A DNA stretch of 31,285 nucleotides, taken from positions 1 to 31,285 of the IMG/VR virus record IMGVR_UViG_3300006810_000225; one strand, given 5' to 3'. This DNA comes from a virus. Under the pieces are notes generated by a model. The model did no database searches and was not told the origin of the DNA. It worked only from the letters and a program-made list of their open reading frames with translations. Positions within the stretch are counted from its first letter, which is position 1. Each line of letters starts with the position of its first letter. This document shows, one piece after another, positions 3,281-19,556 of the stretch. The position numbers were made by a program, and so were the translations under genes.

Positions 3281-3297
3281 GCTCGGAGCATTTTGGG

Positions 3298-3555
3298 TTG
3301 GACACGTACCGAACATCAGATCTCTACTACGCGGCATACCTGAAGACAGCGGGTGTGCCGTTTGTCGGTGTTGACCACACCGATCACCGCGTGGTGTTTC
3401 TCTTCGGGCCGGAGAGTGGTATCTCGGATCTGAAGTCGGGGTACTTCACGGGATCCTCGCGGGTTTCCGCTCTTGCGTTTGTACAAGAGATCCGTCATCT
3501 GAAGTCCTTGGTGCATCGGGCTTTAGGGGGGAACTTTCCATCCCCTAACGGGTAA
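3298..3555 (+). CDS. Small phage protein resembling the DUF5659-type family (85 aa)
   Basis: I place the start at TTG 3298, because GGAG at 3285-3288 is 9 bases upstream and the family-like region (DTYRTSDLYYAAYLKTAGV) begins directly there. Longer readings into the leader have no ribosome site. The order 'TSDLYxAAYLxxxGxxxxGV', 'RVVFxF', then 'LKSLVHRAL' at the C-terminus matches a small family found across phages and sometimes encoded near replication genes; its function is unknown to me. The final codons lie inside the promoter-like element of the next gene, and its stop TAA is the TAA of GGGTAA. Confidence 0.65.
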   Translation: MDTYRTSDLYYAAYLKTAGVPFVGVDHTDHRVVFLFGPESGISDLKSGYFTGSSRVSALAFVQEIRHLKSLVHRALGGNFPSPNG

Positions 3556-3556
3556 G
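3524..3556 (+). promoter_or_regulatory. Bipartite promoter-like element (TAGGGGGG-N18-GGGTA), copy 1
   Basis: TAGGGGGG begins at 3524 and GGGTAAG at 3550, with 29 bases between the two TA steps, the same as four other copies. The -10-like GGGTAA supplies the stop codon of the preceding gene. The next ATG (3564) is 11 bases after the T of GGGTA, so a transcript from here would have almost no leader. Confidence 0.65.
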
Positions 3557-3563
3557 AGGGCCT

Positions 3564-4010
3564 ATGGATTCGCTGCTCTTGCTCGTCGGCATCTTTGATG
3601 CGGAATCAGTTCACACTGATTCCGGACAACAAGTCCTCCCCTCTGCACTCGCGTCATGGGTGCAGAGAGAGGTGACGGTGCATCTTCATCACTTCCCTCG
3701 GGGGGAAGTAGACCCGAACCTTCCCGGTGGTGGGTCCTGTATGTGGAACGGTCATTGTCCACATGGACATCAGGAGAAACCTGGCTGGCTGTTTCAGCAA
3801 ACCCTAACAGGAGTGCTTTCCATTTCGGATGGGAAGGCTTTGGTAGGGGGCGCTCATATCCGGTTCGATCTGATGGAAGGCCATCATGGTCGGCTACTCC
3901 TCTGGGGCGAGGAAAAGCCAGATCGGCTTGAGGATGCGTCGTTTGACGACCTCTTGGCTGATGCGGCCCAGATGCAGAATCTCCTGGAAGCTCTCAAGAA
4001 GGTCCTATGA
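3564..4010 (+). CDS. Unrecognised protein (148 aa)
   Basis: ATG 3564 follows AAGAGGGCCT. An AGAGGG ribosome site may act at a very short distance, or the mRNA may be nearly leaderless given the promoter-like element just upstream. The protein has a Cys/His-rich centre (CMWNGHCPHGH, about residues 59-69), which could bind metal, and an acidic C-terminal helix region. I do not recognise the fold. Its stop overlaps the helicase start (ATGA), so it is probably translated together with the RecD2-like helicase and may be a partner of it; that is inference from position only. Confidence 0.65.
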   Translation: MDSLLLLVGIFDAESVHTDSGQQVLPSALASWVQREVTVHLHHFPRGEVDPNLPGGGSCMWNGHCPHGHQEKPGWLFQQTLTGVLSISDGKALVGGAHIRFDLMEGHHGRLLLWGEEKPDRLEDASFDDLLADAAQMQNLLEALKKVL

Positions 4011-6298
4011 AGAAGGTACGCTCTTCACCCGAGAACTACACTGGTCGGATCGTTCGCATCACGTATCAGAGCGAGGACTTCAGGATCGCTCAGGTGCTCT
4101 TGGACGGGAAATCCAATCCGGTCACTGTCACCGGCAACTTCCCTGGTCAGAACGTAGCTGTGGGTAGCTGGGTCTCTTTCGAGGGGGTCTGGAATGTCCA
4201 TCCCAAATACGGGAAGCAACTGAAGGTCACTCGCAGTCCGGTGTCTGTGGACACTTGGACGGACAAGAAGGTCATCAGCGCGCTTACCGGCAACGGTGTG
4301 GGTCCGAAGTTGCGGCAGGACCTCCAAGTACACTGCTTGAAGGGTGATCTTGATCTGGCAGACTTCCTCGACATGGATGACTTCAGTTCTCTGGGCTGGG
4401 ATGAGATGACGACGCTCTTCGTCTCTACTCGGTGGAGGTCGTTGAGGACGCATCTGGACGCCACGCGGTTTCTGGCAGAGTCGGGCGTTCCCTCTCGTGT
4501 GGTCAACCGCGTCTGGTCCACGTTGGGTGAGGAGCTTGAGGAAAAGATTCTCCACGATCCTTGGGTTCTGGTTCGAGTGGCTGGGATCAAGTTTGAGGAG
4601 GCCGACAAGGTCGCCGAAAGGCTCGGCGTCTCGAAGTCAAACATAGGGCGTCTGAACGCAGCCGTACTCTCCGTCATTCAGCAAGTTGCTCGGGATGGGC
4701 ACGTCTACGCGATGACGGGTCAGGTGATCTCGGCAGTTCCTTCGATGTTGAAGGAGGATGTGTCGCCGACTCGGGTGGCTGAGGCCATTCGCGATCTCCA
4801 CCAACAGGGGAAGTTGGTGGTGGCTCGTCATCCGGAGACTCAAGAGGTCTTGCTCTATGAGCCTTGGGTGTGGGAGATGGAGACGTTCAGTGCAGCGAGT
4901 CTTACTGACCGTATGGTCAGGGCTCAATCCACCATCTCCCAGAAGTACGCTGAGGAGGAGTTGGGCAAGTGGTCCGAGGGGCGTCAGATCTCTCTGACCG
5001 AGACTCAACGTCTCGGCATCCTCCGCGCATTGACGGAGCCTGTGTCTGTCTTGACTGGGCTTCCTGGAACCGGCAAGACGACCGCTCTCCGTGCGGCGGT
5101 CAGCGTTTTCCAAGAGGCTCGGGTGCCGTTTCTTCTCGTGGCACCCACGGGAATCGCAGCGAAGCGACTCGCGTCGGTGACGGGTGCGGAAGCCTTCACG
5201 GTTCATCGTGCTTTCTCTGCGAAGGGGTGGAGCGATGATGATGAGAAGGATGCCAACTACATTGGCATCCTCAACACATCCGAGAAGACGGACTCAGACA
5301 CGCGTTCCCAGGAGTGGGAGTACGGCCCACAGAATCCACATCCTGCGAAGGTGGTGGTTGTCGATGAGAGTTCGATGCTGGACCAGCACATGCTCTATCG
5401 GATTTTGTCGGCCACACTTCCTGAGTGTCGGTTGGTCTTCGTTGGTGATCCCTACCAACTACCGTCGGTCGGAGCGGGAGATGTTCTTCGTGATCTCTCC
5501 AACTCTGGATTCTTTCCTCACACCCACCTGCACGAGATCTTCCGCCAACAGGGGTGCTCTGGCATCGTTGTGGCGGCGCATGATGTCCATGCGGGCAGGA
5601 TTCCAGACACCAAGCAGTCGGACTTCATGCTCCTCGATGCCCAGGAGGATTACGACGCTGCCGACATCATCGTTCACCTGGCGGAGCGTCTCTACGACAA
5701 GAGGATCAACTTCCAGGTCTTGAGTCCTCGTCATGGGGGGGATGCTGGGGTGACCGCTCTCAATGAGATGCTTCGCATGAAGCTCAACCCCCCTACTCCG
5801 GGAGTGGCCGAGCGGAGGGTGGGTGGCGTCATCGTTCGTGAAGGGGATCGGATCATGATCACCAAGAACGACTACCAGAACGGGGTCTTCAACGGAGACA
5901 TCGGGAAGATTCATCGCATCGACTACAAGAGCAAGTCTCTCGCGGTTCACATCTTCGGCGCACCCGATGAGGCTCGCCTTGAGGTCACCTATGACCTCAA
6001 GAAGGGCACTCCTCCGATTCGGTTGGCGTATGCCCAGACCATCCACAAGTCGCAGGGTCAGGAGTACGATGTCATCGTCGTCCCACTTCTGAGGAGCTTC
6101 GGCAGACAGCTTCAGCGAAACTTGATCTACACCGCGATCACACGGGCGAAGAAACGTGTGTTCCTCATTGGGGAGCAGCAGGCGGTCATGAGAGCGGTGC
6201 TCAACAACCGATCCGAGCGTCGGAACACGCTTCTAGGTGTACGCCTGGGGGGTCTATCTGATGCGGATTCTGGTACTTCGGTTGAAGGAGGTAGGTGA
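4007..6298 (+). CDS. RecD2-like superfamily 1 DNA helicase (763 aa)
   Basis: Predicted 5'-3' DNA helicase of the RecD2/TraA group. The N-terminal region (about 15-75) has the OB-like 'VTGNFPGxxVxxGSWVxFEGxW' pattern of RecD2. Helix-hairpin-helix segments follow (ALTGNGVGPKLRQDL near 95). The ATPase core has Walker A GLPGTGKTT at about 350-358 and Walker B VVVVDESSMLD at about 448-458, followed by GDPYQLPSVGAGDVL. The motif VI region is AYAQTIHKSQGQEYD at about 672-686, followed by NLIYTAITRAKK. Length is typical of RecD2 proteins. All key motifs are intact. Its start overlaps the preceding gene by four bases and its end overlaps the next one. It is likely used for fork remodelling or end processing alongside the recombination proteins downstream. 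Confidence 0.95.
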   Translation: MKKVRSSPENYTGRIVRITYQSEDFRIAQVLLDGKSNPVTVTGNFPGQNVAVGSWVSFEGVWNVHPKYGKQLKVTRSPVSVDTWTDKKVISALTGNGVGPKLRQDLQVHCLKGDLDLADFLDMDDFSSLGWDEMTTLFVSTRWRSLRTHLDATRFLAESGVPSRVVNRVWSTLGEELEEKILHDPWVLVRVAGIKFEEADKVAERLGVSKSNIGRLNAAVLSVIQQVARDGHVYAMTGQVISAVPSMLKEDVSPTRVAEAIRDLHQQGKLVVARHPETQEVLLYEPWVWEMETFSAASLTDRMVRAQSTISQKYAEEELGKWSEGRQISLTETQRLGILRALTEPVSVLTGLPGTGKTTALRAAVSVFQEARVPFLLVAPTGIAAKRLASVTGAEAFTVHRAFSAKGWSDDDEKDANYIGILNTSEKTDSDTRSQEWEYGPQNPHPAKVVVVDESSMLDQHMLYRILSATLPECRLVFVGDPYQLPSVGAGDVLRDLSNSGFFPHTHLHEIFRQQGCSGIVVAAHDVHAGRIPDTKQSDFMLLDAQEDYDAADIIVHLAERLYDKRINFQVLSPRHGGDAGVTALNEMLRMKLNPPTPGVAERRVGGVIVREGDRIMITKNDYQNGVFNGDIGKIHRIDYKSKSLAVHIFGAPDEARLEVTYDLKKGTPPIRLAYAQTIHKSQGQEYDVIVVPLLRSFGRQLQRNLIYTAITRAKKRVFLIGEQQAVMRAVLNNRSERRNTLLGVRLGGLSDADSGTSVEGGR

Positions 6299-7107
6299 TG
6301 AGTCTTCCAAGCGTTTCCGAAGAGTTCGTTGATGGGGTGTTCACAGCACTCTCTCGGATGGAGGTTCATCTCGATTCCGATCCTCTACAGTTCGGGCCAA
6401 AGCGTCTGTCCGGTAAGGTCGCCGAGGCACGTGGGATGCTCACGGAGTGTGAGTCTCTTTTCCTGATGGTCAGCCAGGCTCTTCAGAAGTACCGGACTGC
6501 ACATCGGACGATGGAGACCGAGATCACCATCGAGAAGAAGCATCTCTTCGCCAACGATCCCGAGGTTCGAGCGGGTCGCAACGTGGCGGATCGAGATGCG
6601 CTCGCGACGGTTCGTCTTCAAGACCGCGTGCGGGACTTGGCTCTGATTGCTCAGAGCCAAGCAGACCTCGAAGCCCTGATTACGGTTATCAAGGCGAAGC
6701 GCACCGACCTCAAGGATGTGCAGGGTCGGTTGAGAGATCAACTCAAGCTCTGTCAGGAGGAGATCGGCCTCGGAGGTCGGTGGGGGTCCAAGCCAGTTCC
6801 CGGAACCAGGGCTCCAGATCTGGAGGACTCTCCCAACGTCGACAAGCAGACCCTCAAGGATCTGCACGAGATGTTCTCCGGCACGGGCGTGAAGGAGCCT
6901 GATCTTGCGGCGGTCGTTGCAGAAGAGGACGTCGTGAAGCCAGATGTTCTTGAGCGGCCCGACTCCGAGACCGACGAGCCTGCTCTCATTGGTAGTGATG
7001 AGGCAGATCAAGACCTCGATGCGTTGCTGGGTCAGATCTCAGAGTCGGCATCGGATTCCCGACCAGCCCAGACCCTCGATGAGCTTTTGGGCGACCTTGA
7101 CCTCTAG
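6298..7107 (+). CDS. Helical protein with gp32-like acidic tail (269 aa)
   Basis: ATG 6298 lies 5 bases after AGGAGG and overlaps the helicase stop; an in-frame GTG at 6295 would be only 2 bases from that site. Residues 1-155 are helical with a coiled-coil-like, Lys/Glu/Gln-rich middle. The C-terminal third is acidic and low-complexity, and carries two similar short motifs, DLDALLGQI and, at the very end, TLDELLGDLDL. The final motif resembles the acidic tail of T4 gp32 (DLDDLLNDL), which recruits replisome partners. The next gene ends in a similar motif. I do not recognise the N-terminal domain. Roles such as helicase loading or mediating access to ssDNA are inference. The TAG stop opens promoter-like element copy 2. 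Confidence 0.75.
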   Translation: MSLPSVSEEFVDGVFTALSRMEVHLDSDPLQFGPKRLSGKVAEARGMLTECESLFLMVSQALQKYRTAHRTMETEITIEKKHLFANDPEVRAGRNVADRDALATVRLQDRVRDLALIAQSQADLEALITVIKAKRTDLKDVQGRLRDQLKLCQEEIGLGGRWGSKPVPGTRAPDLEDSPNVDKQTLKDLHEMFSGTGVKEPDLAAVVAEEDVVKPDVLERPDSETDEPALIGSDEADQDLDALLGQISESASDSRPAQTLDELLGDLDL

Positions 7108-7139
7108 GGGGGGTCATTTTCTTTCGGGCCGGGTAATAC
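7105..7139 (+). promoter_or_regulatory. Bipartite promoter-like element, copy 2
   Basis: TAGGGGGGG begins at 7105 (the TAG is the stop codon of the preceding gene) and GGGTAATAC at 7131. The distance between TA steps is 29 bases. The following leader to ATG 7203 is about 60 bases, the longest of the six copies. It shows no strong hairpin. Confidence 0.7.
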
Positions 7140-7202
7140 GAACTCGGCGCACATCATCACAAGTACTTCGGATACATAAACTCGCGCCTTTGGAGAAATG
7201 AG

Positions 7203-7922
7203 ATGGATGGATTTGAGACCTTTTCCTTCGGTTCCGGTGACACTTCTGTTGGTCAGCGGTCCAAGCGGTTCAAGGCTGAGACCGGTCGCAGCTACCGGGT
7301 TTCGTTCGTGTGGTTCAACAACTACACTGATGACGGTCTGATTGCTGACGGTGCGTCCATGGCCTTCGCCGGTTGTGAGCGCATCTACAAGCCTGGTTTG
7401 AGCTACGTCCTCATCGACAACAGCAACCGGGCAGCGATGATCGAACTGCTCGGTGAGCAGCCTCGTCAGGCCATCGCGTCGATCATCTGTGTCTGGCCGA
7501 CCGACAAGGACGGTGAGATCGACGTCGCCTCCTTCAAGGCGGGCAAGGGGTACACGCTTCAGCCCTGGGTCTTCAGCCCGGACAAGTACCGGACGATCGG
7601 TCAGGTTCACAAGCGGTTCTCCCTCATGTCGCATGACGTCACCCTCTCCTGCTCGGATGGGCAGTACCAGAAGATGACGTTCACGCCGGAGTCCGAGAGC
7701 CTCCTCCACAAGTACCTCTCTGCCAAGAATGAGGACTTGCAGGCGGTGGGTCGCAAGATCATTTCGGACGCTCGCCTCATGGCGAACAACATCAACGGCG
7801 AGCTTGCCCGTTCCCTCACTGTCGATGAGGTCCGCGAGAAGCTCGGGGGATCTCCGACTTCTCCGACGGGGAACCACTCCTCGAAGAATGTCGATGATCT
7901 CCTCGACGGCATCGGCATCTGA
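7203..7922 (+). CDS. Candidate single-stranded DNA-binding protein (239 aa)
   Basis: ATG 7203 has GGAGA 6 bases upstream. The body (1-200) is rich in aromatic and basic residues (for example VSFVWFNNY and YTLQPWVF). A Ser/Gly/Asn-rich linker then leads to the C-terminus KNVDDLLDGIGI. Globular basic domain, flexible linker and acidic 'DDLL' tail is the layout of T4 gp32 and functionally of bacterial SSB. It has its own strong promoter-like element and is followed by the best terminator in the window, as expected for a protein needed in large amounts. It sits between the helicase and resolvase genes. The fold cannot be confirmed by eye, and no canonical OB motif is obvious. The alternative is another abundant replication accessory protein. 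Confidence 0.6.
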   Translation: MDGFETFSFGSGDTSVGQRSKRFKAETGRSYRVSFVWFNNYTDDGLIADGASMAFAGCERIYKPGLSYVLIDNSNRAAMIELLGEQPRQAIASIICVWPTDKDGEIDVASFKAGKGYTLQPWVFSPDKYRTIGQVHKRFSLMSHDVTLSCSDGQYQKMTFTPESESLLHKYLSAKNEDLQAVGRKIISDARLMANNINGELARSLTVDEVREKLGGSPTSPTGNHSSKNVDDLLDGIGI

Positions 7923-7971
7923 TGTTGCTGGTGAGCGGCCTCGTTGACATCGGCGGGGTCGTTCGCACTTC

Positions 7972-8005
7972 AAACCCTCGCGCGGTTCGCCGTGCGGGGG
8001 TTTTT
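7972..8005 (+). terminator. Rho-independent terminator
   Basis: AAACCCTCGCGCGG and CCGTGCGGGGGTTT pair into a stem of about 14 bp, with two G-T wobbles, around a TTCG loop (7986-7989). A run of five T (8001-8005) follows. It ends the transcript of the candidate SSB gene. CGGTAGGGGGG follows directly and leads into the resolvase gene. Confidence 0.9.
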
Positions 8006-8019
8006 CGGTAGGGGGGTGG

Positions 8020-8682
8020 ATGAGAGTTCTCGGATTTGATCCCAGCCTCACCAACTACGGATGGGCCATTCATGATGACTCATATCCAGTGGGTGATTCC
8101 CGCCGTTGCGAGGCTAGTGGGAGGTTTCAGACCAAGTCCAAAATGGAGTTTGTTACCCGCTATATGTTCATGCGGGATTCCCTTCTTGCTCTGATACGAG
8201 AGCACAGACCCGACAGGGTGGGGGTCGAGTATCCGATCATGAACGCCCTCTACTCGGAAGGGATGTGGGGCCTGTTCTTGTACTCATGTGAAGCCCTCCG
8301 TGCCGAGTGTATGGATGTGGTCTTCTGGACTCCTCTCCAAGTCAAGGCACATGCACGCGACACCATCGACCGTCCCAAGGGGTGGAAGATGGACAAGACC
8401 GACATGTGTGAGGCAGCCAAGGCGGATGTGGGATCAGGTCGTTGGAATCACAACGAGGCTGATGCGTACCTTGTCGCTGTTCTCTCTGCGCGTTTCTGGC
8501 AGTTCTACGACGGAACCCTGAGCGAGGGGGGGCTAACTCCTACCGAGAACCGGTACTTCAATAAGGTTCACACCTTCGTCCGTGGGGCGAAGGAAGGCAA
8601 AACAATCAAGACCGGTATGATTCACCGTGAGTCTGACCGGTTCTTTCTGTGGTCTCGTCTGAGGGACGTTTCGGAGAAGTAA
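8020..8682 (+). CDS. RuvC-like Holliday junction resolvase (220 aa)
   Basis: Predicted RNase H-fold endonuclease that resolves branched DNA. The N-terminus MRVLGFDPSLTNYGW carries the first acidic residue, Asp7. Glu70 lies in VGVEYP, and the C-terminal motif HNEADAYLVA provides His144 and Asp148. This order (D, E, then H-x3-D) is that of RuvC-type nucleases. Length slightly exceeds bacterial RuvC (about 170 aa); the extra part is C-terminal and basic. ATG 8020 follows TAGGGGGGTGG, which may act as ribosome site. The gene lies directly after a terminator and its stop overlaps the recombinase start (TAATG). A role in processing recombination intermediates before packaging is the established role for phage RuvC-like enzymes and fits the neighbours. 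Confidence 0.85.
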   Translation: MRVLGFDPSLTNYGWAIHDDSYPVGDSRRCEASGRFQTKSKMEFVTRYMFMRDSLLALIREHRPDRVGVEYPIMNALYSEGMWGLFLYSCEALRAECMDVVFWTPLQVKAHARDTIDRPKGWKMDKTDMCEAAKADVGSGRWNHNEADAYLVAVLSARFWQFYDGTLSEGGLTPTENRYFNKVHTFVRGAKEGKTIKTGMIHRESDRFFLWSRLRDVSEK

Positions 8683-9923
8683 TGGCGGCAAGGAAGAAGA
8701 ACACCGGAGCGAGGTCAGTAGACTTGGCGGGGGCTTCAAGCCCTCTCGCGGCGGTTCGCGAGTTTCTGATCAAGAAGAAGGGCAAGGAGTTCACCGACTG
8801 TCGGGTGGTCCTCGATGAGGAGTCTCTGAAAGAGTCTCTGCCTCACATCTCGACGGGATCGGACGTGGTGAACTACCTGATCGGTGGTGAGCCGAACACC
8901 TTCGGGGTGGCACCGTGTCCTGGTTGGCCCCGAGGCCGCGTGGCGCAGGTCTGGGGTCATGAGTCGGCAGGCAAGACCACCCTCTGTCTGGAGACGGTCG
9001 CGGCGGTCTGTCAGGCTGGAGGCACGGCGGTCTACATCGACTGGGAGAACGACATCGTTCCCGATTACGCTGCGGCGCTGGGCATCCCGGTCACTGATCC
9101 CGACCGCTTTGAGCTTCTCCAGCCCGAGACGCTGGAGGACGGGATCAAGTACGCGATGGCTTACGCGACGGCAGGCGTGGACGTGATCATCTTTGACTCG
9201 GTGGGTGCCGCTGTTCCTCGTCGCATCGCCGAGCGTGACGCGCTCGACGTGGCTGAGCAGGCGAAGGTCGCAGAGCTTCAGTCTGTGTGGTCCCAGGAGC
9301 TTCCGAATCTCAAGAAGGTGATCGCCAAGAGTGGGACTGCGATTGTGGGAATCAGCCAGATCCGGTCGACCTTGGCGTCGATGCCGGGTGCCAAGACCAC
9401 AAAGCCCCAGGGCGGCAACGCATGGAAGTTCTACGCCTCCGTCCGGCTGGAGTTGCGTAGGGTCAAGAATGAGAAGTCGCGGGAGCACAATGTGTTGACC
9501 CACAAGACCGATGAGCGTGTCGTCGGCGGGATCATCAAGGTCACTGCCATCAAGTGCAAGCTCTCTCGGGCTCAGGGTCGAGACGAGATCTTCTACATCC
9601 GGTGGGGTGAGGGGATCGACAACGTGCGGACGATGATGGAGATCGCCAGCAACCACGGGATCATCAAGAAGGGTGGTGCTTGGTTGTCCTGGAATGACTG
9701 CCCGAGCGGTCCGCTCAAGATTCAGGGCACGGAAAAGCTCCGCACCCATCTGATGGAGAACGAGGAAGACTACCTCGCCCTTCGGGATCGGGTGATGCCG
9801 CTTCTGGGTCACGATGCGGATGTCGTCTACGTTGATGAGGATGAAGACGGCGGCCCGACTTCAGATCTCGATGCCATCTTTGATGAGCCGAAGAAGTCGA
9901 ATGTTCCCGATTTGGATGAGTAG
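8682..9923 (+). CDS. RecA/UvsX-like recombinase (413 aa)
   Basis: Strand-exchange ATPase. ATG 8682 overlaps the RuvC-like stop and has GGAGAA 5 bases upstream; an earlier in-frame start lies inside the neighbour. Walker A GHESAGKTT is at residues 92-100. YIDWEND (about 125-131) is where RecA has YIDAEHA. Walker B VDVIIFDSVGAAVPR is at about 176-190. GISQIRS and the Gly-rich PQGGNAWKFYASVRLEL segment match the L2-flanking and core motifs of RecA/UvsX. The tail is very acidic (DEDEDGGPTSDLDAIFDE), as in RecA, where it tunes access to SSB-coated DNA. Its TAG stop opens promoter-like copy 3. Confidence 0.93.
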   Translation: MAARKKNTGARSVDLAGASSPLAAVREFLIKKKGKEFTDCRVVLDEESLKESLPHISTGSDVVNYLIGGEPNTFGVAPCPGWPRGRVAQVWGHESAGKTTLCLETVAAVCQAGGTAVYIDWENDIVPDYAAALGIPVTDPDRFELLQPETLEDGIKYAMAYATAGVDVIIFDSVGAAVPRRIAERDALDVAEQAKVAELQSVWSQELPNLKKVIAKSGTAIVGISQIRSTLASMPGAKTTKPQGGNAWKFYASVRLELRRVKNEKSREHNVLTHKTDERVVGGIIKVTAIKCKLSRAQGRDEIFYIRWGEGIDNVRTMMEIASNHGIIKKGGAWLSWNDCPSGPLKIQGTEKLRTHLMENEEDYLALRDRVMPLLGHDADVVYVDEDEDGGPTSDLDAIFDEPKKSNVPDLDE

Positions 9924-9956
9924 GGGGGGTCTTTCCTCCTTGGTTTCCGGTATCAC
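9921..9956 (+). promoter_or_regulatory. Bipartite promoter-like element, copy 3
   Basis: TAGGGGGGG starts at 9921 (TAG is the recombinase stop) and CCGGTATCACC ends at about 9957. The TA-to-TA spacing is 30 bases, one more than the other copies, and the core is CGGTA rather than GGGTA. It lies 23 bases before the ATG of the Rad50-like gene. Confidence 0.65.
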
Positions 9957-9969
9957 CAGACCAAGGAGG
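9935..9969 (+). promoter_or_regulatory. Inverted repeat that can cover the ribosome site
   Basis: CCTCCTTGG (9935-9943) is the perfect complement of CCAAGGAGG (9961-9969), and the right arm is the Shine-Dalgarno for ATG 9974. The left arm lies upstream of the -10-like CGGTA. Only transcripts reading through from the recombinase gene would contain both arms; transcripts from copy 3 would have a free ribosome site. Confidence 0.65.
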
Positions 9970-9973
9970 CTCA

Positions 9974-12084: not shown

Positions 12085-12413
12085 GTGAACTAGCAAAGAG
12101 AGCCGTCGCCTGCCGTCACTGGCGGTGGATGCCGGGGATGCTGGACGAGCACGGCAACCGCTATGTAGCGGAGGGTCGATACCCCCGCCGCTCCGTCTTG
12201 CCCGATCTTACCGACCCCGCCACGCTCGGCGCATTGCTCGCGCTGGTGCGGGAGGCGTGGGGCGATGATCGGGTGTCATCGGTCGCTAATACCGTCTATG
12301 GCACTCGAATGATCCTGATGCCGGATGACGCAGCACCAGAAGGTGAGCGTCTGATTGGATGCTCCACGACTGAAGCCGAAGCCCTTGTGATCGCGCTGGA
12401 GGCTGCGCCGTGA
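12081..12413 (+). CDS. Small phage protein of unknown function (110 aa)
   Basis: ATG 12081 follows GGAGGACAGA and overlaps the preceding stop. The pattern ELAKRAVACRHWRWMPGM, then LPDLTDPATLGALLALVREAWGD, and a C-terminal TEAEALVIALEAAP matches a small protein that I recall from many phage genomes, always without a known function. It is complete for that family. Position in the overlapping run suggests co-expression with the Mre11-like nuclease. The only Cys residues (positions 10 and about 93) do not form an obvious metal site. Confidence 0.75.
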   Translation: MSELAKRAVACRHWRWMPGMLDEHGNRYVAEGRYPRRSVLPDLTDPATLGALLALVREAWGDDRVSSVANTVYGTRMILMPDDAAPEGERLIGCSTTEAEALVIALEAAP

Positions 12414-12775
12414 CTGACCAACCAAGTTGCCCAAACTGTTCGATGTGTGCGCTCAAGTCCTACCACGACAAGCGGGACTCGTACTCCCCTGTCCCTCCCG
12501 AGATCAATGGGGATGGCCTGCCCCTCGTGGTGCTGCCGGCCCCCGAGGTGAGGGACAGTCAGGTGCAGGTCCCCCTCATGGGCCGGTACGCACCCGACGT
12601 GGTCGAGGTACTCGACGCCCAGTTCGGGCGTGACGACATCAACGTGGGCCACGCCGTGGCCTGTCCCTATCCGCAGGACGACCGAGGCCAGTTCCTGCGG
12701 GCCAACACGCTGCGGCTTCCTGACGAGAAACGAGTTCGGAATCCGTCTGTTCGGGTGTTGGGGGTCCAGAGATGA
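12410..12775 (+). CDS. Short Cys-containing protein, weak resemblance to the N-half of a family 4 uracil-DNA glycosylase (121 aa)
   Basis: GTG 12410 overlaps the preceding stop (GTGA). The order of elements is CPNCSMCALKS (residues 7-17), a Gly-containing loop GDGLPLVVLPAPE, PLMGRYAPDVVEVL, then INVGHAVACPYP. This order mirrors family 4/5 uracil-DNA glycosylases, which have CxxCxL, a LVVGEAPG active site, PFVGxSG and YVTNxVKCxP. The catalytic 'GEAPG' is replaced by 'LPAPE' and the chain ends where the second half should begin. If related, it is a shortened and inactive version. The alternative is an unrelated zinc-binding protein. This is a visual pattern match only. Confidence 0.55.
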   Translation: MTDQPSCPNCSMCALKSYHDKRDSYSPVPPEINGDGLPLVVLPAPEVRDSQVQVPLMGRYAPDVVEVLDAQFGRDDINVGHAVACPYPQDDRGQFLRANTLRLPDEKRVRNPSVRVLGVQR

Positions 12776-13377
12776 GCATCAAGAACCTGCTCCTTGAGGT
12801 CTACGATGCCGTCTGCCGTGCTCGTCGTCTGGGTCAGACTACGAATCTGGTTCGGGTCGCAACGGGCTACGGCGATCAGCGTTTCACGAGCGGCATCCTC
12901 GTAACGGCCAACAAGCAGCAAGCCGACCAAGTGGAGAGGGATGCTTGGACTTCGGGGTTGCCCAAGCCCAAGTGCGTCTCGGTCTACTCGCTTGCACGGC
13001 AGTCTCGTGGTCGTGATCCCGTCCCCCTCTACTTCGACAACCACACGGTCGGTGATCTGGCGGGGCGTGCTGCCGATGAGATCGGGAAGCTGGAGGCAGA
13101 AATCAAGAAGGTCAGCCGGGATCTCCAGAACATGACCCACAGAGCACAAGTCGCAGAGCGTCAGGTCGAAGTGCTGCGGGAACAACTCCGTCAGTATCAG
13201 GATGCCGTGATCCGGTTGTCCAATGCTATCGCTCCCTTCCGGTCGCCCTCAAACGGGGACACCTCTGTTGAGTCGGTGCGTCACCGACCTCTGGGACTCG
13301 CTGAACTCCTCCGCGAGTTGGAACAGGGGGGTCATCTTCCGCCCGTTCCCGGTAAAGAGGGGGAGGAGGCACCATGA
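12772..13377 (+). CDS. Possible degenerate P-loop protein with coiled coil (201 aa)
   Basis: ATG 12772 overlaps the preceding stop. The N-terminal half shows RRLGQTTNLVRVA, which resembles a nucleotide-binding loop with Lys replaced by Gln. ILVTANKQQADQVER follows, then PLYFDNHTVGDL in the place of a Walker B strand. Residues about 103-150 are a coiled coil (KLEAEIKKVSRDL through RQVEVLREQL). The last third is Pro-rich and likely disordered. It may be a non-hydrolysing relative of small phage P-loop proteins, or unrelated. No enzymatic role should be assumed. Confidence 0.6.
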   Translation: MSIKNLLLEVYDAVCRARRLGQTTNLVRVATGYGDQRFTSGILVTANKQQADQVERDAWTSGLPKPKCVSVYSLARQSRGRDPVPLYFDNHTVGDLAGRAADEIGKLEAEIKKVSRDLQNMTHRAQVAERQVEVLREQLRQYQDAVIRLSNAIAPFRSPSNGDTSVESVRHRPLGLAELLRELEQGGHLPPVPGKEGEEAP

Positions 13378-13634
13378 ACCAGCCCATCCGCGTCACTTGC
13401 ATCAACCCCAACCTCTCCAGTTACGGCATGATCGGCACCCTTGTCGGCTCCGAGTTTGGCGAGGACAACCCCGTCCGCCCCGGCGTCCTGTGCGATGTCA
13501 TCTGGCTCGACTACCTTGACGAAGGTGCAGACGAGATCGACGGTGGCAACCTCGGAAGGGTCACCGAGGCCACCTACCTTGCCGAGTGCGTGCGCTTCGA
13601 CCGTGATGTTGACCTCAATGATGGTGTCTCGTGA
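13374..13634 (+). CDS. Unrecognised small protein (86 aa)
   Basis: ATG 13374 overlaps the preceding stop, with GGGAGGAGG a few bases upstream. The protein is acidic and beta-rich: a basic N-terminus (MNQPIRVTCINP), a Gly-containing SH3-like segment (GMIGTLVGSEFGEDN), and an acidic C-terminal half with several Asp/Glu pairs. The layout could be a small barrel, but I recognise no family. The stop overlaps the start of the Mre11-like nuclease, so translation of the two is probably coupled. Confidence 0.65.
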   Translation: MNQPIRVTCINPNLSSYGMIGTLVGSEFGEDNPVRPGVLCDVIWLDYLDEGADEIDGGNLGRVTEATYLAECVRFDRDVDLNDGVS

Positions 13635-14689
13635 GCATCAACCTCGTCTGGCGCACAGACGTTCACCTGTCCGACCGCGCACCGTCCAGCCGTACCGACG
13701 ACTGGGCTGACGCCGTGTTCGACAAGTTGGGGCAGGTCCGTGATCTCGCCCGTGAGGTCAACGCCGCTGCGATCCTCGACGGCGGTGACTTCTTCCACAT
13801 CAAGTCCCCGACCCGGAACAGCCACGCGCTCGTTCATCGGACGGCGGAACACCACAGCACCTACCCGTGCCCGGTCTACTGCACACCGGGGAACCACGAC
13901 TCCGTGTACGGCGACTACACGTTCCTCCCGCAGCAGCCGTTGGGCGTCCTGTTCAGTACGGGTGTGTTCAAGCGGTTGTACGACGGGTACGAGGTCTTCT
14001 TCGCTGGTCGGGGGGATCAGATGTACGCGAAGGCGTACCCCTACACCAAGCCGAAGGGTGGTTGGGCAGACGCCAACCCCTTCGCCATCCCCATGAATCA
14101 GCGGAACGGTCCCATCGTCCGTGTGGTCGGCATTCCGTACCACGGCACGTCCTACGACATGGAGCGGTTCACCAGCATCGAGAAGGGCGATGAGGACATC
14201 CTGATCTGCGTGGCCCATGTGCTCGCCAGCAACAAGGGCGGCTCCATGTTCGAGGGTGAGGACATCATCAAGTACTCCGACCTCGTGGACACCGCGCCCG
14301 ACGTGTACCTGTTCGGTCACTGGCACAAGAACCAAGGCGTCGAGGAGATCGGCGGCAAGCAGTTCGTGAACATCGGCAGCCTGACCCGTGGGTCACTTTC
14401 GCAGGACAACCTCGACCGGATTCCGTCGGCGGCTGTGCTCCGCTGCACCGAGAAGGGTGTCGAGATCGAGGTCAGGCCGCTCAACGTCCGTCCCGCCGAG
14501 GAGGTCTTTGACGTGGAAGGTCGGGAGCGTCAGGTCAAGCGGCAGGTGGAGATGGACTCGTTCGTCACCGCGATCCGTGATGCCCTCCAGCCCTCTGATG
14601 AGGGTGAGACGTTGGCAGACGCTGTGTCCGGTATGGACATGCCGAATGAAGTCCGAGAACGGGCGTTGGCCTACTTGGAGCGTGTGTGA
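13631..14689 (+). CDS. SbcD/Mre11-like metallophosphoesterase nuclease (352 aa)
   Basis: Predicted Mn-dependent nuclease subunit of an Mre11-Rad50 (SbcCD, T4 gp47-gp46) complex that opens and trims DNA ends. GTG 13631 overlaps the preceding stop. The phosphoesterase motifs are complete and in order: Asp10-x-His12 (RTDVHLSD), Asp53 (DGGDFFH), Asn88-His89-Asp90 (PGNHD), a His near 196 (CVAHVLA) and His230-x-His232 (GHWHKN). A C-terminal region after about residue 260 likely contacts the ATPase coiled-coil base. Unlike T4, its gene lies between two halves of the Rad50-like ATPase gene. Its TGA is followed by a 95-base gap. Confidence 0.93.
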   Translation: MSINLVWRTDVHLSDRAPSSRTDDWADAVFDKLGQVRDLAREVNAAAILDGGDFFHIKSPTRNSHALVHRTAEHHSTYPCPVYCTPGNHDSVYGDYTFLPQQPLGVLFSTGVFKRLYDGYEVFFAGRGDQMYAKAYPYTKPKGGWADANPFAIPMNQRNGPIVRVVGIPYHGTSYDMERFTSIEKGDEDILICVAHVLASNKGGSMFEGEDIIKYSDLVDTAPDVYLFGHWHKNQGVEEIGGKQFVNIGSLTRGSLSQDNLDRIPSAAVLRCTEKGVEIEVRPLNVRPAEEVFDVEGRERQVKRQVEMDSFVTAIRDALQPSDEGETLADAVSGMDMPNEVRERALAYLERV

Positions 14690-14730
14690 GGGTCCGACTA
14701 CTGCGCGGCGACCAACTATTCGACGTGGGT

Positions 14731-14761
14731 GCGTCGGGGGAACCGACGCCAGCGGGTACGG
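14731..14761 (+). promoter_or_regulatory. Hairpin and GGGTA core before the Fe-S nuclease gene
   Basis: GCGTCGG (14731-14737) and CCGACGC (14743-14749) form a perfect 7-bp stem with loop GGGAA. It lacks a T-run, so it is not a standard terminator. AGCGGGTACGG follows with the GGGTA core (T at 14757), 28 bases before ATG 14785. TAGGGGGG is absent at the usual distance. Confidence 0.4.
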
Positions 14762-14784
14762 TGCTTCCTGCAAAGGAACGCCCG

Positions 14785-15726
14785 ATGAACAAAGACTCGA
14801 CTCTCTACTGGAGTCATCTGGCCGCTTTCGAGGCTTGTCCTCGAAAGTTTCTGTGGATGAAGGGATGGGATGGGATCGATCTGGGTCACGGTCCAGGTCA
14901 CCCAATGCCGCGACCAGAACAGGACTCGAAGCATCATGCGGTGATGGGGATCGCGATTCAGTACGCCGTCGAGAAGATGTACAACGACGAACTGTACCGA
15001 GACCCTGCGAATCTGCTTCGTGTCATGTTGCAGATCGGTGAGAAGGAGTTCGCTCGCCAGGAAGCAAAGCCTTGGAACAAGATCGACTACGGCAAGGCTC
15101 AGATGTCTCGCGAGGACATGCTGGACATCGTTCGCGATGGGATCACGGGATACCTTTCCACGATGAAGGCCCATCGGTTCCTTGGTCCGTATGCGAAGGC
15201 CGAGGTCAACCTTCTAGGATGGATCGACAAGTGGAACCCCATCGGGGGTCGTGCTGACACCATCGTGCGTCGGGACGACACCGGGGTCACGATCATCGAC
15301 GGAAAAAACACCAAGCACAAGATGAAGTACACCGACCCGGATCAACTTCGCTGGTATGCGTTGCTGTTCAAGTTGGCGTACCGTCAGATGCCAGATCGCC
15401 TTGCCTACGTCTGGTACAGATTCCCCCACGGGAAGAAGACCCTCGATGAAGAGGGGTCCGAGATCATCGAGACGGGTGTGGAGTGGGTCGACTTCGATGA
15501 GGACGACCTGAAGGGGCTGGCTCAGCGCGCCCTCGATGCCAAGAAGAAGATGATGCGGGGGAAGTTTGACCCCACGCCTACTCCCAAGACCTGTCGGTTC
15601 TGCGACTTCGAGTCCATCTGCGATGCGAGACAGGAACAGAGGGCAGCGAACTCCGCAAAGCGGCGGGCCAAGAGAGAGATCAAGGAGATCTCTGGGGCTG
15701 ATGGGTTTGTGGAACTCAAGCTCTAG
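14785..15726 (+). CDS. Cas4/RecB-like PD-(D/E)XK nuclease with Fe-S cluster cysteines (313 aa)
   Basis: Starts at ATG 14785, 7 bases after AAAGGA; an extension to GTG 14686 is open but lacks a ribosome site and crosses a hairpin. The nuclease core has SHLAAFEACPRKF at the N-terminus, Asp158 in GGRAD, Asp172-Gly-Lys174 in TIIDGKNTK, and DQLRWYALLF (the QxxxY motif). Four cysteines, Cys18 plus Cys270, Cys273 and Cys279 (CRFCDFESIC), match the one-plus-three pattern of Cas4 and AddB-type nucleases, where they hold a 4Fe-4S cluster. No cas1 or cas2 is nearby, so a role in phage DNA recombination or end resection is more likely than CRISPR adaptation. The TAG stop opens promoter-like copy 4. Confidence 0.9.
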   Translation: MNKDSTLYWSHLAAFEACPRKFLWMKGWDGIDLGHGPGHPMPRPEQDSKHHAVMGIAIQYAVEKMYNDELYRDPANLLRVMLQIGEKEFARQEAKPWNKIDYGKAQMSREDMLDIVRDGITGYLSTMKAHRFLGPYAKAEVNLLGWIDKWNPIGGRADTIVRRDDTGVTIIDGKNTKHKMKYTDPDQLRWYALLFKLAYRQMPDRLAYVWYRFPHGKKTLDEEGSEIIETGVEWVDFDEDDLKGLAQRALDAKKKMMRGKFDPTPTPKTCRFCDFESICDARQEQRAANSAKRRAKREIKEISGADGFVELKL

Positions 15727-15758
15727 GGGGGTACTTTCGACTTCCCATCGGGTATCAG
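15724..15758 (+). promoter_or_regulatory. Bipartite promoter-like element, copy 4
   Basis: TAGGGGGG starts at 15724 (TAG is the stop of the Fe-S nuclease gene) and GGGTATCAG at 15750, with 29 bases between TA steps. It precedes the coiled-coil and sliding-clamp genes. A small hairpin, TTCCT/AGGAA (15767-15780), can partly cover the GGAGGAA ribosome site downstream. Confidence 0.7.
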
Positions 15759-15782
15759 ACAGTACTTTCCTCTGGAGGAACA

Positions 15783-16055
15783 ATGAGCGACATGGATGAT
15801 CGCCTCAACACGGCACTCGCCCTTCGCACCAAGCTCGCGGGCGAAGCCCAGCGCATCGCGGGTAAGAAGGAAGCGGCAGAGAAGGCGCTTTCGGATGTGG
15901 AGCAGGAGATTCGGTCCAAGAATCTCGACCCGAACACACTCGACCAAACCCTCACCACCCTTACGGTAGCCTACGAGCAAGCCGTCGAGAACTTTGAGAA
16001 AGATCTCGAAGCCGCCAAGCAGGCTCTCGCTCCGTACCTGGAGAGCAACGCATGA
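15783..16055 (+). CDS. Coiled-coil protein (90 aa)
   Basis: ATG 15783 follows TGGAGGAACA. Nearly the whole protein is charged helix (LRTKLAGEAQRIAGKKEAAE and onward), with one break near SKNLDPNTLDQ around residues 45-55, giving a helical-hairpin shape. This resembles coiled-coil arms of SbcC/Rad50-like ATPases. The gene lies between the separated N- and C-lobes of that ATPase, so it may be a third fragment or an accessory to the complex. It could equally be an unrelated partner of the sliding clamp, whose start its stop overlaps (ATGA). Only the coiled-coil nature is well supported. Confidence 0.7.
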   Translation: MSDMDDRLNTALALRTKLAGEAQRIAGKKEAAEKALSDVEQEIRSKNLDPNTLDQTLTTLTVAYEQAVENFEKDLEAAKQALAPYLESNA

Positions 16056-17188
16056 AGATCGAAATCGCAAAGTCTGACCTTGAGGCAGCCCTCAAGGTCG
16101 TCGGCATCACGGTGGGGTCTGGAAATGACCTTTCGTCTCACTACCTTTTCCGCTACCGCGATGGGGCGTGTGAGGTCATGTCGTATGACATGCGAGTCTT
16201 TTCCCGCGCTCCCCTCCTCGGCAGCCAGGTCGAGGCTTCAGAGGGAGAGGCGTTCACGGCTGAAGCGTGGCGGCTCGACAAGTGGATCTCTTCCGTGGGG
16301 TCGGGTGCCCTGACTCTTTCCTCGGGGGAGGGTGGAGAGGTCATCGCCAAGGGTCCGCGTAGCCGGATCAAGTTGAGGTCTCTCGATGCCAGTCGGTTCC
16401 CGTTCTGGGACGGACTGCTTTCCACTGCAAAGAGCCTGGGCAACGCGAACCCGAGCATCCTTCATCGGGCGATCAACCTGAGCAAGGTGTTCGTGTCTTC
16501 CGACGACACCAACCGCCCCGAGATCTGTCAGATTGAGGCTCGGGATGGGGTTATTCAAGCGACCAATCGGGGGGCGGTCTCGAACGTCACCGTGCAGTCG
16601 GTTCCCGATCTGGCTCTTCGCATCTCCGGAAAGGACCTCACGGTCGCCTTGAAGTTTCTGAACGACAAGGTCACCCAGGCAGGGGACATCGAGGTTCTGA
16701 TTCCTTCGCGGGATGGGGAGAAGCCCTCCGGTACGGTGTTCTCCCGACCCGATGGCTCTTACGTCGGGATCACGATGCCCACCCTCGCGCTGCCCTCTAT
16801 CTCTGTGGATGAGGGTGATCGAGAAATGTCGATCACCCTCGATGTGAAGGAGTTCATGGGGGCGGTGGACGTTCTTCTCGCATCGGCTCCGAAAGGTCAT
16901 GGGGACGTGACCTTCTTCGCGAAGGACTCGGCTCTCGTGGTGCAGATGCCCTCGGCAGCGGGTGGTGAGGATGAGTATCCGCTGGAGGTCTCTTCGGAGA
17001 GTGGTCTGGGAGACACCTCTTTCTCCATCGACTACGCCTACATCAAGTCCCTCTCGGACCTCTTCGATCTGGATACGATCGAGTTGGGCGTCCACAAGAA
17101 GGGACGTGGTGGGTATGTTTCCTTCCTTCACGAGGATGGTGGGGAGAAGGGCAACCGCTACTTTACGGTGATCGTATGGAGAAGATGA
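16052..17188 (+). CDS. DNA polymerase sliding clamp, DnaN/beta-like (378 aa)
   Basis: Predicted ring-forming processivity factor. Size (378 aa) is close to bacterial beta clamps (about 366). The N-terminus (MKIEIAKSDLEAALKVVG) and the repeated beta-alpha pattern are typical: three similar segments begin near residues 1, 125 and 255, the last with SITLDVKEFMGAVDVLLAS. Sequence conservation is low, as usual for phage clamps, so the call also rests on context: a DnaX-like loader is encoded at 20049 and a primase at 18799. It overlaps the coiled-coil gene upstream and the ATPase C-half downstream. A clamp of the bacterial beta type, not the T4 gp45 type, suggests a C-family or host-like polymerase elsewhere in the genome. 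Confidence 0.82.
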   Translation: MKIEIAKSDLEAALKVVGITVGSGNDLSSHYLFRYRDGACEVMSYDMRVFSRAPLLGSQVEASEGEAFTAEAWRLDKWISSVGSGALTLSSGEGGEVIAKGPRSRIKLRSLDASRFPFWDGLLSTAKSLGNANPSILHRAINLSKVFVSSDDTNRPEICQIEARDGVIQATNRGAVSNVTVQSVPDLALRISGKDLTVALKFLNDKVTQAGDIEVLIPSRDGEKPSGTVFSRPDGSYVGITMPTLALPSISVDEGDREMSITLDVKEFMGAVDVLLASAPKGHGDVTFFAKDSALVVQMPSAAGGEDEYPLEVSSESGLGDTSFSIDYAYIKSLSDLFDLDTIELGVHKKGRGGYVSFLHEDGGEKGNRYFTVIVWRR

Positions 17189-17808
17189 CCAACTTGCTCC
17201 AAGACCTGGTTCGAGTCGAGTCCCGTCGGGACTCGGCACTCGCATCTCTGCGTGAGACCCAGGCGAAGGTTCTTACCTTGGAGTCCGAGGGTGAGATTCT
17301 CGATCGGGTCGCAGACCTATTCCGAGCGTTGATCGACCGTGAGGTGGTGGACAACGCCAAGACGGTTGAGAACCTCCTGACGGAAGGTCTTCAGGCCATC
17401 TTTGATGACCTGGACCTCTCCGTCAAATCGGAGATCGACATCCAGCGCGGCAAGGTCGCGGTGGACTTGATCACCGTGCAGAAGCAAGCGGATGGGACGG
17501 TTACCGAGGGACCCTGCACGGATGCCTACGGTGGCTCTGTCGCCACGGTTGAGTCGGTTCTGCTTCGTATCGTCGTGCTCAACCGTCGAGGGCTTCGACC
17601 TCTCCTGTTGCTGGATGAGTCTCTGGCGGCTGTTGCGGAGCACTACGTGCCTCGGGTGGGGAGATTCCTCGCTACGCTCTCGGAGCGCATGGGCCTCGAT
17701 GTTCTCGCCGTCTCCCACAATCCGTCTCTTGTCGAGTCTGCCACAAACGCCTATCGAATCAGTAAGAAGGACGGAAAGGCGACTTTCCGCAAGATCGGAA
17801 GGCCATGA
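17185..17808 (+). CDS. SbcC/Rad50-like ATPase, C-terminal half (207 aa)
   Basis: Start taken at ATG 17185, which overlaps the clamp stop (ATGA); an in-frame ATG at 17176 is possible. The first 45 or so residues are coiled coil. The C-lobe of an SMC/Rad50-type ATPase follows: ABC-signature-like DAYGGSVATVESVLLR, Walker B RPLLLLDESLAAV with catalytic Glu, and LDVLAVSHNPSLVESA with the switch His. There is no Walker A and no zinc hook; both are on the N-half gene at 9974. The two products should assemble into one ATPase head. The coiled-coil arms are very unequal (about 290 residues against 45), which argues against a simple cut at the hook. Confidence 0.85.
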   Translation: MTNLLQDLVRVESRRDSALASLRETQAKVLTLESEGEILDRVADLFRALIDREVVDNAKTVENLLTEGLQAIFDDLDLSVKSEIDIQRGKVAVDLITVQKQADGTVTEGPCTDAYGGSVATVESVLLRIVVLNRRGLRPLLLLDESLAAVAEHYVPRVGRFLATLSERMGLDVLAVSHNPSLVESATNAYRISKKDGKATFRKIGRP

Positions 17809-18239
17809 TGCGTGGGGTGGGCGAGGTCCGTCAGAAGCTCAAGCAAGCGCAGTACCGCCATGTGAAGCGGATACTGCGTGATCGCTTTCCGGCTGGTGAG
17901 GACTGGCCGAAAGAGGAAGTCGAGCAAATCAAGGACGAGTACCGAGAGTTCTTCGCGGCCTCTCCCATCCACATCATCGCCAAAGACTTCCCGGACGTGG
18001 CTGCCCTCATGTGGGTGCTTGAGGAGCAGCCGGATCAACCACTCGCGGTCAACGGTACGCTCGTGGGTCGGATGGATGGGGTCATGTTGTGGGCCGATTC
18101 GGACATGGAAGCCGACCGTGCTCGCGTGATCATCGACCGCATTGTCGAAGCGGCTACCGAGAGTGATTCGGAGCCTGAAATCACCCTCCCGGTTCCTGTG
18201 CCCGTGCGGAAGTCGTGGTGGCAGAGGTTGTTCGGATGA
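17805..18239 (+). CDS. Unrecognised protein (144 aa)
   Basis: ATG 17805 overlaps the preceding stop, with a second ATG at 17808; GGAAGG lies just upstream. The N-terminal 60 residues are basic and helical (EVRQKLKQAQYRHVKRILRDRF), followed by a mixed domain containing PIHIIAKDFPDVAALMWVLEE. The C-terminus is hydrophobic/aromatic (KSWWQRLFG). A short 'WWQRLF' tail could be a docking peptide, but I see no exact clamp-binding consensus. It is encoded in one overlapping group with the clamp and ATPase half, so a replication or repair accessory role is likely. Confidence 0.65.
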   Translation: MMRGVGEVRQKLKQAQYRHVKRILRDRFPAGEDWPKEEVEQIKDEYREFFAASPIHIIAKDFPDVAALMWVLEEQPDQPLAVNGTLVGRMDGVMLWADSDMEADRARVIIDRIVEAATESDSEPEITLPVPVPVRKSWWQRLFG

Positions 18240-18760
18240 ACCCGAATCTGTTGGTCTTGGTGGACTGTAAGACGAAGCATCTGCCTGTGATGTTGGACCG
18301 TGTTCCGGCACCGGAGGGTCCGGATGCCGGTCCGTTCCTGATCACATCCAGCACATCCTTGCTTTGGGTCGAACGTGCTTTTCATGGGGGGTTTCTCCGC
18401 GTTGCCGTCCGTGAGTCGGTTCGCGATTCGCTTTTTCGGGACATCATCGAGGAGATCTCTGGGAGGGGGGTCGAACGTGAGTGGGGGAATGTTCTTCCTG
18501 CCACCGAGGAGGGGCTGCTAGAAGGTCTCGCGCACCTCTCGTACTACGATCTCTCTGATCCCGTTCTGCTCTACGGGGCCGACTTTGACATCGGCGTGGC
18601 GGAGCACGTTGCTCGGGTACCCGCCGACTGGCTCCCCGCGACATGGGCTGTTTTGATCCCCAACGATCGTGGCTTCGTGGGCACGGCGTTCACGTTTCCT
18701 GGGGGTCATGTCGGAGCGATTGTCCACAACCCCTCACGCGGGGTCGTAGTACTTCGGTAG
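18236..18760 (+). CDS. Phage protein of unknown function (174 aa)
   Basis: ATG 18236 overlaps the preceding stop (ATGA). The protein has a hydrophobic N-terminal strand (NLLVLVDC) that is too short for a signal peptide. The second half contains LLYGADFDIGVAEHVARVP, WAVLIPNDRGFVGTAF and, near the end, VGAIVHNPSRGVVVL. I recall similar C-terminal patterns in uncharacterised phage proteins, without a known function. No catalytic motif is visible. Its TAG stop opens promoter-like copy 5. Confidence 0.7.
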   Translation: MNPNLLVLVDCKTKHLPVMLDRVPAPEGPDAGPFLITSSTSLLWVERAFHGGFLRVAVRESVRDSLFRDIIEEISGRGVEREWGNVLPATEEGLLEGLAHLSYYDLSDPVLLYGADFDIGVAEHVARVPADWLPATWAVLIPNDRGFVGTAFTFPGGHVGAIVHNPSRGVVVLR

Positions 18761-18792
18761 GGGGGTTCTCTCGACTTCGGTTCGGGTAGTAG
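18758..18792 (+). promoter_or_regulatory. Bipartite promoter-like element, copy 5
   Basis: TAGGGGGG starts at 18758 (TAG is the preceding stop) and GGGTAGTAG at 18784, with 29 bases between TA steps. ATG 18799 lies only 12 bases after the T of GGGTA, with no Shine-Dalgarno in between (GTAGTAGACCCCT). This suggests a leaderless primase mRNA. Confidence 0.7.
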
Positions 18793-18798
18793 ACCCCT

Positions 18799-19524
18799 AT
18801 GAAGCAGTGGCTCACCAAAGGTCTGTTGGACTCCTCGGAGTACACGCCCGAGTATGCAGAGGGTTTCATTCTCGGGCGGGGTCTTCCTTACCGGATGATG
18901 AGAGAGATGCATGTGGGTGTCTGGACACTTCCGGACTCCCCTTGTCCCGATCCGCTCTTTGCGAGGCGCTACGGTCCTCTGGGCCAGTCCGTCGAGGACT
19001 GGGTTTCGGTTCCGATCTACTCTCCTCGCGGGGAGATCATCGGGGTTGAGTTTCGTCGGTGGGATGGTGAGTACGGAAGCCAGAAGTTCTATCTTCCGGA
19101 TTCATCATGGCTTCCCGTCTTCACGGGGTTGGTGCCGTCGGCGCTCCACCGCATCTGGAGCGGTGGGGACGTGTGGCTTGTGGAGGGTCTGTTTGATCTC
19201 TCTCTGGCTCATGCTGTCCCGGCGAAGGATGTCGTGCTGGCGTGCGGTGGAGCCAAGATCACGCCCAACCAGGTGGCGTTTCTTCAGCGGTTCATGTCTG
19301 ACAAGGCTCAGGTCCACATCGCGTTCGACATGGACGATACTGGTCGAAAGATGGCTTACGGGTATGTCCATCCAGACACGGGCAAGAAGGTCTGGGGTGT
19401 GTCCGAGCGTCTTTCGAGGGCTGGAGTGAGATCACGAGTCGTGGAGTATCGCGGCGGTAAGGATCCCGGTGAGATCTGGGAGAAGTTTGGTACTTCCTCT
19501 CTAAAGAGCGCCTTCTACTTGTAG
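18799..19524 (+). CDS. DnaG-type primase TOPRIM core (241 aa)
   Basis: Predicted catalytic part of a DnaG-family primase. The N-terminal domain contains SVPIYSPRGEIIGVEFRRWDG, as in the DnaG core. The TOPRIM domain has Glu129 in WLVEGLFD, Asp177-x-Asp179-Asp180 in AFDMDDTGRK, and then YRGGKDPGEIW, so the metal-binding residues are intact. The zinc-binding CHC2 domain and the helicase-interacting C-terminal domain of bacterial DnaG are missing. Either the zinc domain is encoded elsewhere or the protein depends on partners. No Shine-Dalgarno precedes the start, and translation may be leaderless. The TAG stop opens promoter-like copy 6. Confidence 0.88.
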   Translation: MKQWLTKGLLDSSEYTPEYAEGFILGRGLPYRMMREMHVGVWTLPDSPCPDPLFARRYGPLGQSVEDWVSVPIYSPRGEIIGVEFRRWDGEYGSQKFYLPDSSWLPVFTGLVPSALHRIWSGGDVWLVEGLFDLSLAHAVPAKDVVLACGGAKITPNQVAFLQRFMSDKAQVHIAFDMDDTGRKMAYGYVHPDTGKKVWGVSERLSRAGVRSRVVEYRGGKDPGEIWEKFGTSSLKSAFYL

Positions 19525-19556
19525 GGGGGTTCGTGGGAGGGGTGCGCGGGTAGAAC
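19522..19556 (+). promoter_or_regulatory. Bipartite promoter-like element, copy 6
   Basis: TAGGGGGG starts at 19522 (TAG is the primase stop) and GGGTAGAAC at 19548, with 29 bases between TA steps. The spacer (TTCGTGGGAGGGGTGCGC) differs from the others, which usually have CTTTC after the G-run. The fixed spacing is therefore not due to simple duplication. Confidence 0.65.

Follow-up and report, generated by a model that had tools for sequence, protein, structure and literature searches.

What is the G-rich, two-box element that recurs ahead of replication genes in this viral DNA, and what might read it? The window, as we call the whole 31,285-base stretch that was analysed, carries a T4-like gene set: a Dda-like helicase (4007), a RuvC-like protein (8020), UvsX (8649), SbcC-like (9974) and SbcD-like (13631) proteins, an exonuclease (14686), a sliding clamp (16052), a primase (18799) and a clamp loader (20049). 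A pattern scan of the window located six exact copies of TAGGGGGG-N18/19-SGGTA at the positions originally predicted, every one on the + strand, where chance would give 0.01; none of 100 shuffles gave six. The distance between the TA preceding the G run and the TA of GGTA is, also as predicted, 29 bases in five of the six copies and 30 at 9921; the spacer is N18 at 3524, 7105, 15724, 18758 and 19522, and N19 at 9921. The six are genuine but the set was incomplete, since a relaxed scan added a seventh copy with one mismatch at 13324 and an ambiguous match at 8524. We refer to this element as class I:

3524-3554, + strand: class I element; ATG 3564 lies 9 nt past GGTA, apparently leaderless
7105-7135, + strand: class I element, 67 nt 5' of ATG 7203 of a probable ssDNA-binding protein gene, with a putative leader RNA
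8524-8555, + strand: ambiguous class I match inside the RuvC gene, at its end; the called uvsX start follows about 126 nt later
9921-9952, + strand: class I element, the copy whose spacer is longer; the SbcC-like gene 9974 comes 21 nt further on
13324-13354, + strand: seventh class I copy, CAGGGGGG-N18-CGGTA, one mismatch, within the end of ORF 12772-13377 and 19 nt 5' of ATG 13374
15724-15754, + strand: class I element, 28 nt 5' of gene 15783; the sliding clamp gene 16052 comes next
18758-18788, + strand: class I element, 10 nt 5' of the primase-like gene 18799 (9 nt in most relatives), apparently leaderless
19522-19552, + strand: class I element 5' of the metallopeptidase-like gene 19570, with the clamp loader gene 20049, the KOW protein gene 21451 and the tandem sigma-4 gene 21987 downstream

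Relatives were gathered through UvsX protein similarity, independently of the motif, giving 36 loci, some of which are duplicates of one phage. The coding strand of these loci carried 89 copies of GGGGG-N18/19-SGGTA and the opposite strand none, and the reversed pattern, a control, was nearly absent. We scanned spacing in eight contigs (the window plus seven relatives read as whole contigs, several of the relatives' records being fragments), using approximate gene calls from a simple codon-usage caller. Far from occurring equally often inside genes, GGGGGT-N17-SGGTA had 42 copies in the 80-nt stretches ahead of genes (80.7 kb) and 5 inside genes (738 kb, nine times more sequence); the corresponding counts for GGGGGT-N18-SGGTA were 16 and 2. 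Neighbouring spacers had 0-4 upstream copies each, leaving a sharp peak at 17-18. Per-contig counts were 6- to 70-fold above the expectation of a second-order Markov model, for example 30 against 5.2 in a 297-kb relative and 11 against 0.15 in contig G004. Kinship among the relatives inflates such counts; hence, it is the spacing, strand and inside-gene controls that bear the argument, not the raw numbers. Before orthologous genes, such as those of gene 15783, the boxes are kept while the spacers have diverged, down to about 44% protein identity.

Across 2.9 million viral contigs we found 53 exact class I matches. Most are single, with no other copy in the stretch examined, and are probably due to chance; contigs recovered also through UvsX hold several copies. 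LR745208.1 (485 kb), the closest among deposited records, lacks class I in the 41 kb around uvsX. Three loci with at least 70% UvsX identity, L061 (36% G+C), L071 and L073, are likewise without any class I element, suggesting that the promoter code evolves faster than the replication proteins.

A better notation for the element is G5-6-T-N17/18-Y(C/G)GGTA. In a profile of 82 non-redundant sites, whose columns fixed by the search pattern have no independent weight, the sixth G of the run is present in 83%, a T follows in 56%, and the next base is unconstrained. Spacer information is near zero, and the boxes lie about 17 bp apart, as in two-box promoters of the sigma70 family. The pyrimidine 5' of (C/G)GGTA is C in 65% of sites and T in 34%. 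The TAG that opened the element as first described is not part of it. It is indeed the stop codon of the upstream ORF in five window copies (ORF ends at 7107, 9923, 15726, 18760 and 19524), and in the sixth, at 3524, the TAA within GGGTAA terminates ORF 3226-3555; however, TA precedes the G run at only 22 of the 82 sites, GA at 19, AA at 11 and other dinucleotides at 30. TAG is frequent in the window because the element is packed against stop codons there. A G-quadruplex at the G run was considered and set aside, since a single G run per site allows no intrastrand quadruplex.

At eight sites the called start codon lies 9-10 nt past GGTA; at all the others it is 19 nt or more away, and no site falls at 11-18 nt. 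The eight fall in three gene families: the primase orthologues, the gene 3564 orthologues and one further gene. A start codon 9-10 nt past GGTA is too close for a ribosome-binding site to fit in between; those mRNAs would therefore begin at the ATG. If RNA starts 9-10 nt past GGTA, a gap at 11-18 nt is to be expected, since leaders of intermediate length would be too short for a ribosome site and too long for a leaderless start. These distances, an indirect measure to be set beside the sigma70-type start 5-9 nt past the -10 box, are thus suggestive of a transcription start about 9-10 nt after GGTA.

Gene-upstream regions without class I contain a further motif of rigid spacing, CGGTA(G)-N6-CTAT (class II), found 94 times upstream of genes and 3 times inside them, with practically no spacer other than 6. 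The A of its CTAT is the 9th nucleotide past GGTA which, together with the class I start-codon distances, indicates the same start position for both classes. All five class II sites of the window lie beyond 22.6 kb and all seven class I copies before 19.6 kb, in keeping with the earlier statement that no complete class I copy precedes late genes:

22598-22612, + strand: class II element, CGGTA-N6-TTAT
23389-23403, + strand: class II element 5' of the 700-aa gene 23402
26779-26793, + strand: class II element 5' of gene 26841
28065-28079, + strand: class II element, 37 nt 5' of the endolysin gene 28117
29622-29636, + strand: class II element 5' of gene 29736, a weak match to the tail-associated DUF2460

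The genes behind class II include the endolysin gene and large putative virion genes. Late timing is therefore proposed from the endolysin and weak structural matches; in the search for structural genes the standard sheath and terminase families (PF04984, PF17289) gave no match, and neither did PF07230, though its control was silent everywhere. The whole of LR745208.1 (485 kb) holds two class II matches. We also observed, behind a class II element of contig G003 (L096:14816-18583), a protein of 1255 aa that combines a eukaryotic-type topoisomerase I core with a HAD domain, and in the window a ferritin-like/Dps-like protein (25594-26427) that is conserved among relatives.

Taken together, spacing, strand, upstream enrichment, start-codon distances and the existence of a separate late element strongly support class I as a promoter. 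We favour, at a probability of roughly 75%, a middle-type promoter class served by host RNA polymerase that a phage sigma-type factor has reprogrammed. G5-6-T would be the -35 box and Y(C/G)GGTA the -10 box, with 17, sometimes 18, bases between them counted from GGGGGT, and RNA would begin about 9-10 nt past GGTA. A phage-encoded sigma-type factor would direct host core RNA polymerase to class I and so activate replication and recombination genes (DNA polymerase, the UvsX-SbcC region, clamp, primase, clamp loader) as well as late regulators; in G003, a DNA polymerase gene and a DNA-binding-protein gene each have class I upstream. Late genes would be transcribed from class II, which has the -10 core in common with class I and no -35 box. 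The early, middle and late labels used here are putative, being derived from gene content alone.

The original prediction proposed a phage-specific or modified-polymerase promoter. The first half stands; the second needs refinement, since these phages encode sigma-type proteins, and a beta-type RNA polymerase gene (PF00562) had no match in eight relatives, several of them fragmentary (the control was positive in all 14 genomes), unlike phages of the phiKZ/AR9 type. A single-subunit RNA polymerase (PF00940) also gave no match, although its control likewise matched nowhere. Two neighbouring window genes encode proteins that could act in transcription:

21451-21990, + strand: KOW-domain protein, NusG/antiterminator-like, adjoining the tandem sigma-4 gene
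21987-22595, + strand: protein with two sigma-70 region 4 HTH domains (PF04545, 48.6 bits, cut-off 24.1), a candidate transcription factor

Among solved structures, SigF region 4 matches the tandem sigma-4 protein best (E 1.4e-4). Most other records that were searched have a member of its family, whether or not class I is present, and since the protein is found in relatives that lack the element (G002, G008 and G009) it cannot alone explain class I. An AlphaFold model of this protein was too weak for standalone interpretation (mean pLDDT 42).

A second candidate is a divergent, putative two-domain sigma of about 305 aa, encoded in G003, G005 and L161, which contains a segment resembling region 2 as well as a C-terminal HTH. 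In all three contigs its gene has a class I element upstream. Its matches are weak (Sigma70_r2, E 0.04; sigma-H 3mzy, E 0.82, colinear across both domains), and an hhalign comparison with another phage's full sigma fell short of significance. The AlphaFold model, with a mean pLDDT of 50, is too weak to be used alone; most of its top Foldseek hits are sigma factors, with no single significant match, and we treat this result as supporting only. The protein was detected on these three contigs and is absent from the window, itself a 31-kb fragment. We infer that the likeliest class I readers are the two-domain sigma, the tandem sigma-4 protein or both. No early activator of class I was identified. 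One contig with few class I copies (G012; L147, 288 kb) encodes a full-length RpoD-like sigma in a 347-aa open frame (PF04542, E 1.8e-18).

A more specific arrangement is possible, and we offer it tentatively: one phage sigma, with a region 4 that reads G6 and a region 2 that reads CGGTA, might serve both classes, first at -35-dependent middle promoters and then at -35-less late promoters with the CTAT initiator, where the tandem region-4 protein would act as co-activator. If so, the middle-to-late switch would consist of one sigma ceasing to need its -35 box, and some genes would be expressed from leaderless mRNAs.

Could a host sigma read the -10 box instead? A SigB/SigF-type sigma would recognize GGGTA, and a phage activator would occupy the G6 box, just as T4 MotA substitutes for -35 recognition at middle promoters. 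The first -10 position is G in 54% of class I sites, and this reading also agrees with the SigF match of the tandem sigma-4 protein; however, that position is C in the other 46%, and the late class, with its tight gene-upstream peak, is CGGTA-based as well. Phages seldom rely on stress sigma factors. Nor is there a GTTT box: the consensus is GTTT-N14-19-GGGTA for M. smegmatis SigF (PMC4694148) and GTTTAA-N12-14-GGG(A/T)A(A/T) for B. subtilis SigB (PMC8346170), whereas class I has G5-6-T. The resemblance to SigB/SigF promoters noted at the outset thus holds for about half of the -10 boxes and not for the -35, as had been recognized for the G run. We consider a host SigB/SigF-type sigma unlikely; the host itself was not identified in two attempts at comparing UvsX with 84,980 genomes.

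Much less probable is an operator, terminator or RNA-level signal lying between genes. Such a signal would fit the frequent overlap of copies with the upstream stop codon, but the apparently leaderless copies, whose start codons 9-10 nt past GGTA leave no separate room for a ribosome site, argue against it, as do the agreement of spacing and -10/initiator geometry with class II and the lack of any conserved T run or hairpin at the element in the 82-site profile. Chance, or a by-product of coding in a genome of 59% G+C, could account for the 8524 match through conserved protein sequence (GGLTPTExRYF), but as an explanation of class I it is refuted by the shuffle, Markov, strand, reversed-pattern and inside-gene controls.

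A phage sigma acting on host polymerase, as we favour, has precedents. Late promoters of Salmonella phage 7-11 (GTAAtg-N16-aCTA) are read by the phage sigma gp47 and start 6-9 nt from the element (PMC8948821). Class I resembles them in its two phage-specific boxes, rigid spacing and proposed use of host polymerase with a phage sigma, here a candidate only; it differs in that G6 and SGGTA are wholly different boxes, and that it serves replication genes and a second class the late genes. In phiEco32, middle and late promoters consist of a single element, tAATGTAtA, and the phage sigma gp36 lacks region 4 (PMC8948821). This -35-less class is analogous to class II, but phiEco32 uses one sequence for middle and late genes whereas the window phage family has two classes with a common -10 core.

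The proposed three-class program, the replication genes, the -35-less late class and the location of late regulators in middle-type operons recall T4 with its middle (MotA/AsiA) and late (gp55/gp33/gp45) systems (PMC6024815, PMC2988020, PMC7892883). The promoter sequences are, in contrast, unrelated. The T4 middle signature, a MotA box at -30 with a TATAAT -10, is absent from the 82-site class I profile, and we identified no homologues of MotA, gp55 or gp33 in these phages, which have the tandem sigma-4 protein in their place. Region-4-only sigma-type proteins in large T4-like phages have a parallel in group 2 jumbo phages, described as having "minimal", HTH-only sigma factors (PMC7824862); here there are two tandem region-4 domains, and we found no promoter class assigned to the jumbo-phage factors in that account.

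We found no earlier description of class I in the open literature, most subscription journals lying outside our coverage. We regard it as a phage-specific promoter class, unusual in that its -35 box is all G, and with a -10 core common to the late class of the same phages. For large T4-like phages that are uncultured and have been seen in metagenomes only, with contigs of up to 297 kb, it would amount to a promoter code: replication- and late-gene promoters could be marked from sequence alone and start sites predicted with an error of one or two bases. The gene-expression timetable of a phage could be read off, and the candidate sigma-type readers can be tested in vitro.

A third class occurs in G003 (L096-L110, 297 kb), with 19 copies (strict pattern) of GGGGGGTTCAACT-N8-16-TCTCCGTAT, with A or AG usually coming next. 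These yield TTCAAC-N17-TATA, which resembles a promoter of a primary sigma and would be early. GGGGGG stands immediately 5' of TTCAAC-N17-TATA, and an invariant TCTCCG just before TATA; the other contigs scanned held no copy of this combined element. Behind the G003 copies lie genes for a possible ADP-ribosyltransferase, a kinase-like AAA protein, a phosphoesterase and small unknown proteins.

Gene 7203 encodes a 239-aa product with an acidic C-terminal tail like that of an ssDNA-binding protein; a database match was sought and none obtained. Its leader (7136-7202, about 67 nt if the transcript is class I) contains a conserved 5-bp stem, GGCGC...GCGCC, that closes beside the ribosome-binding site. 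Two pairs vary on both sides among eight relatives with pairing kept in every case, and more distant relatives have, by eye, other complementary stems (CGGCAC/GTGCCG, CGACAC/GTGTCG); single-sequence folding was mostly without significance. The stem and the acidic-tailed product together recall the autoregulation of T4 gp32 (PMC535899).
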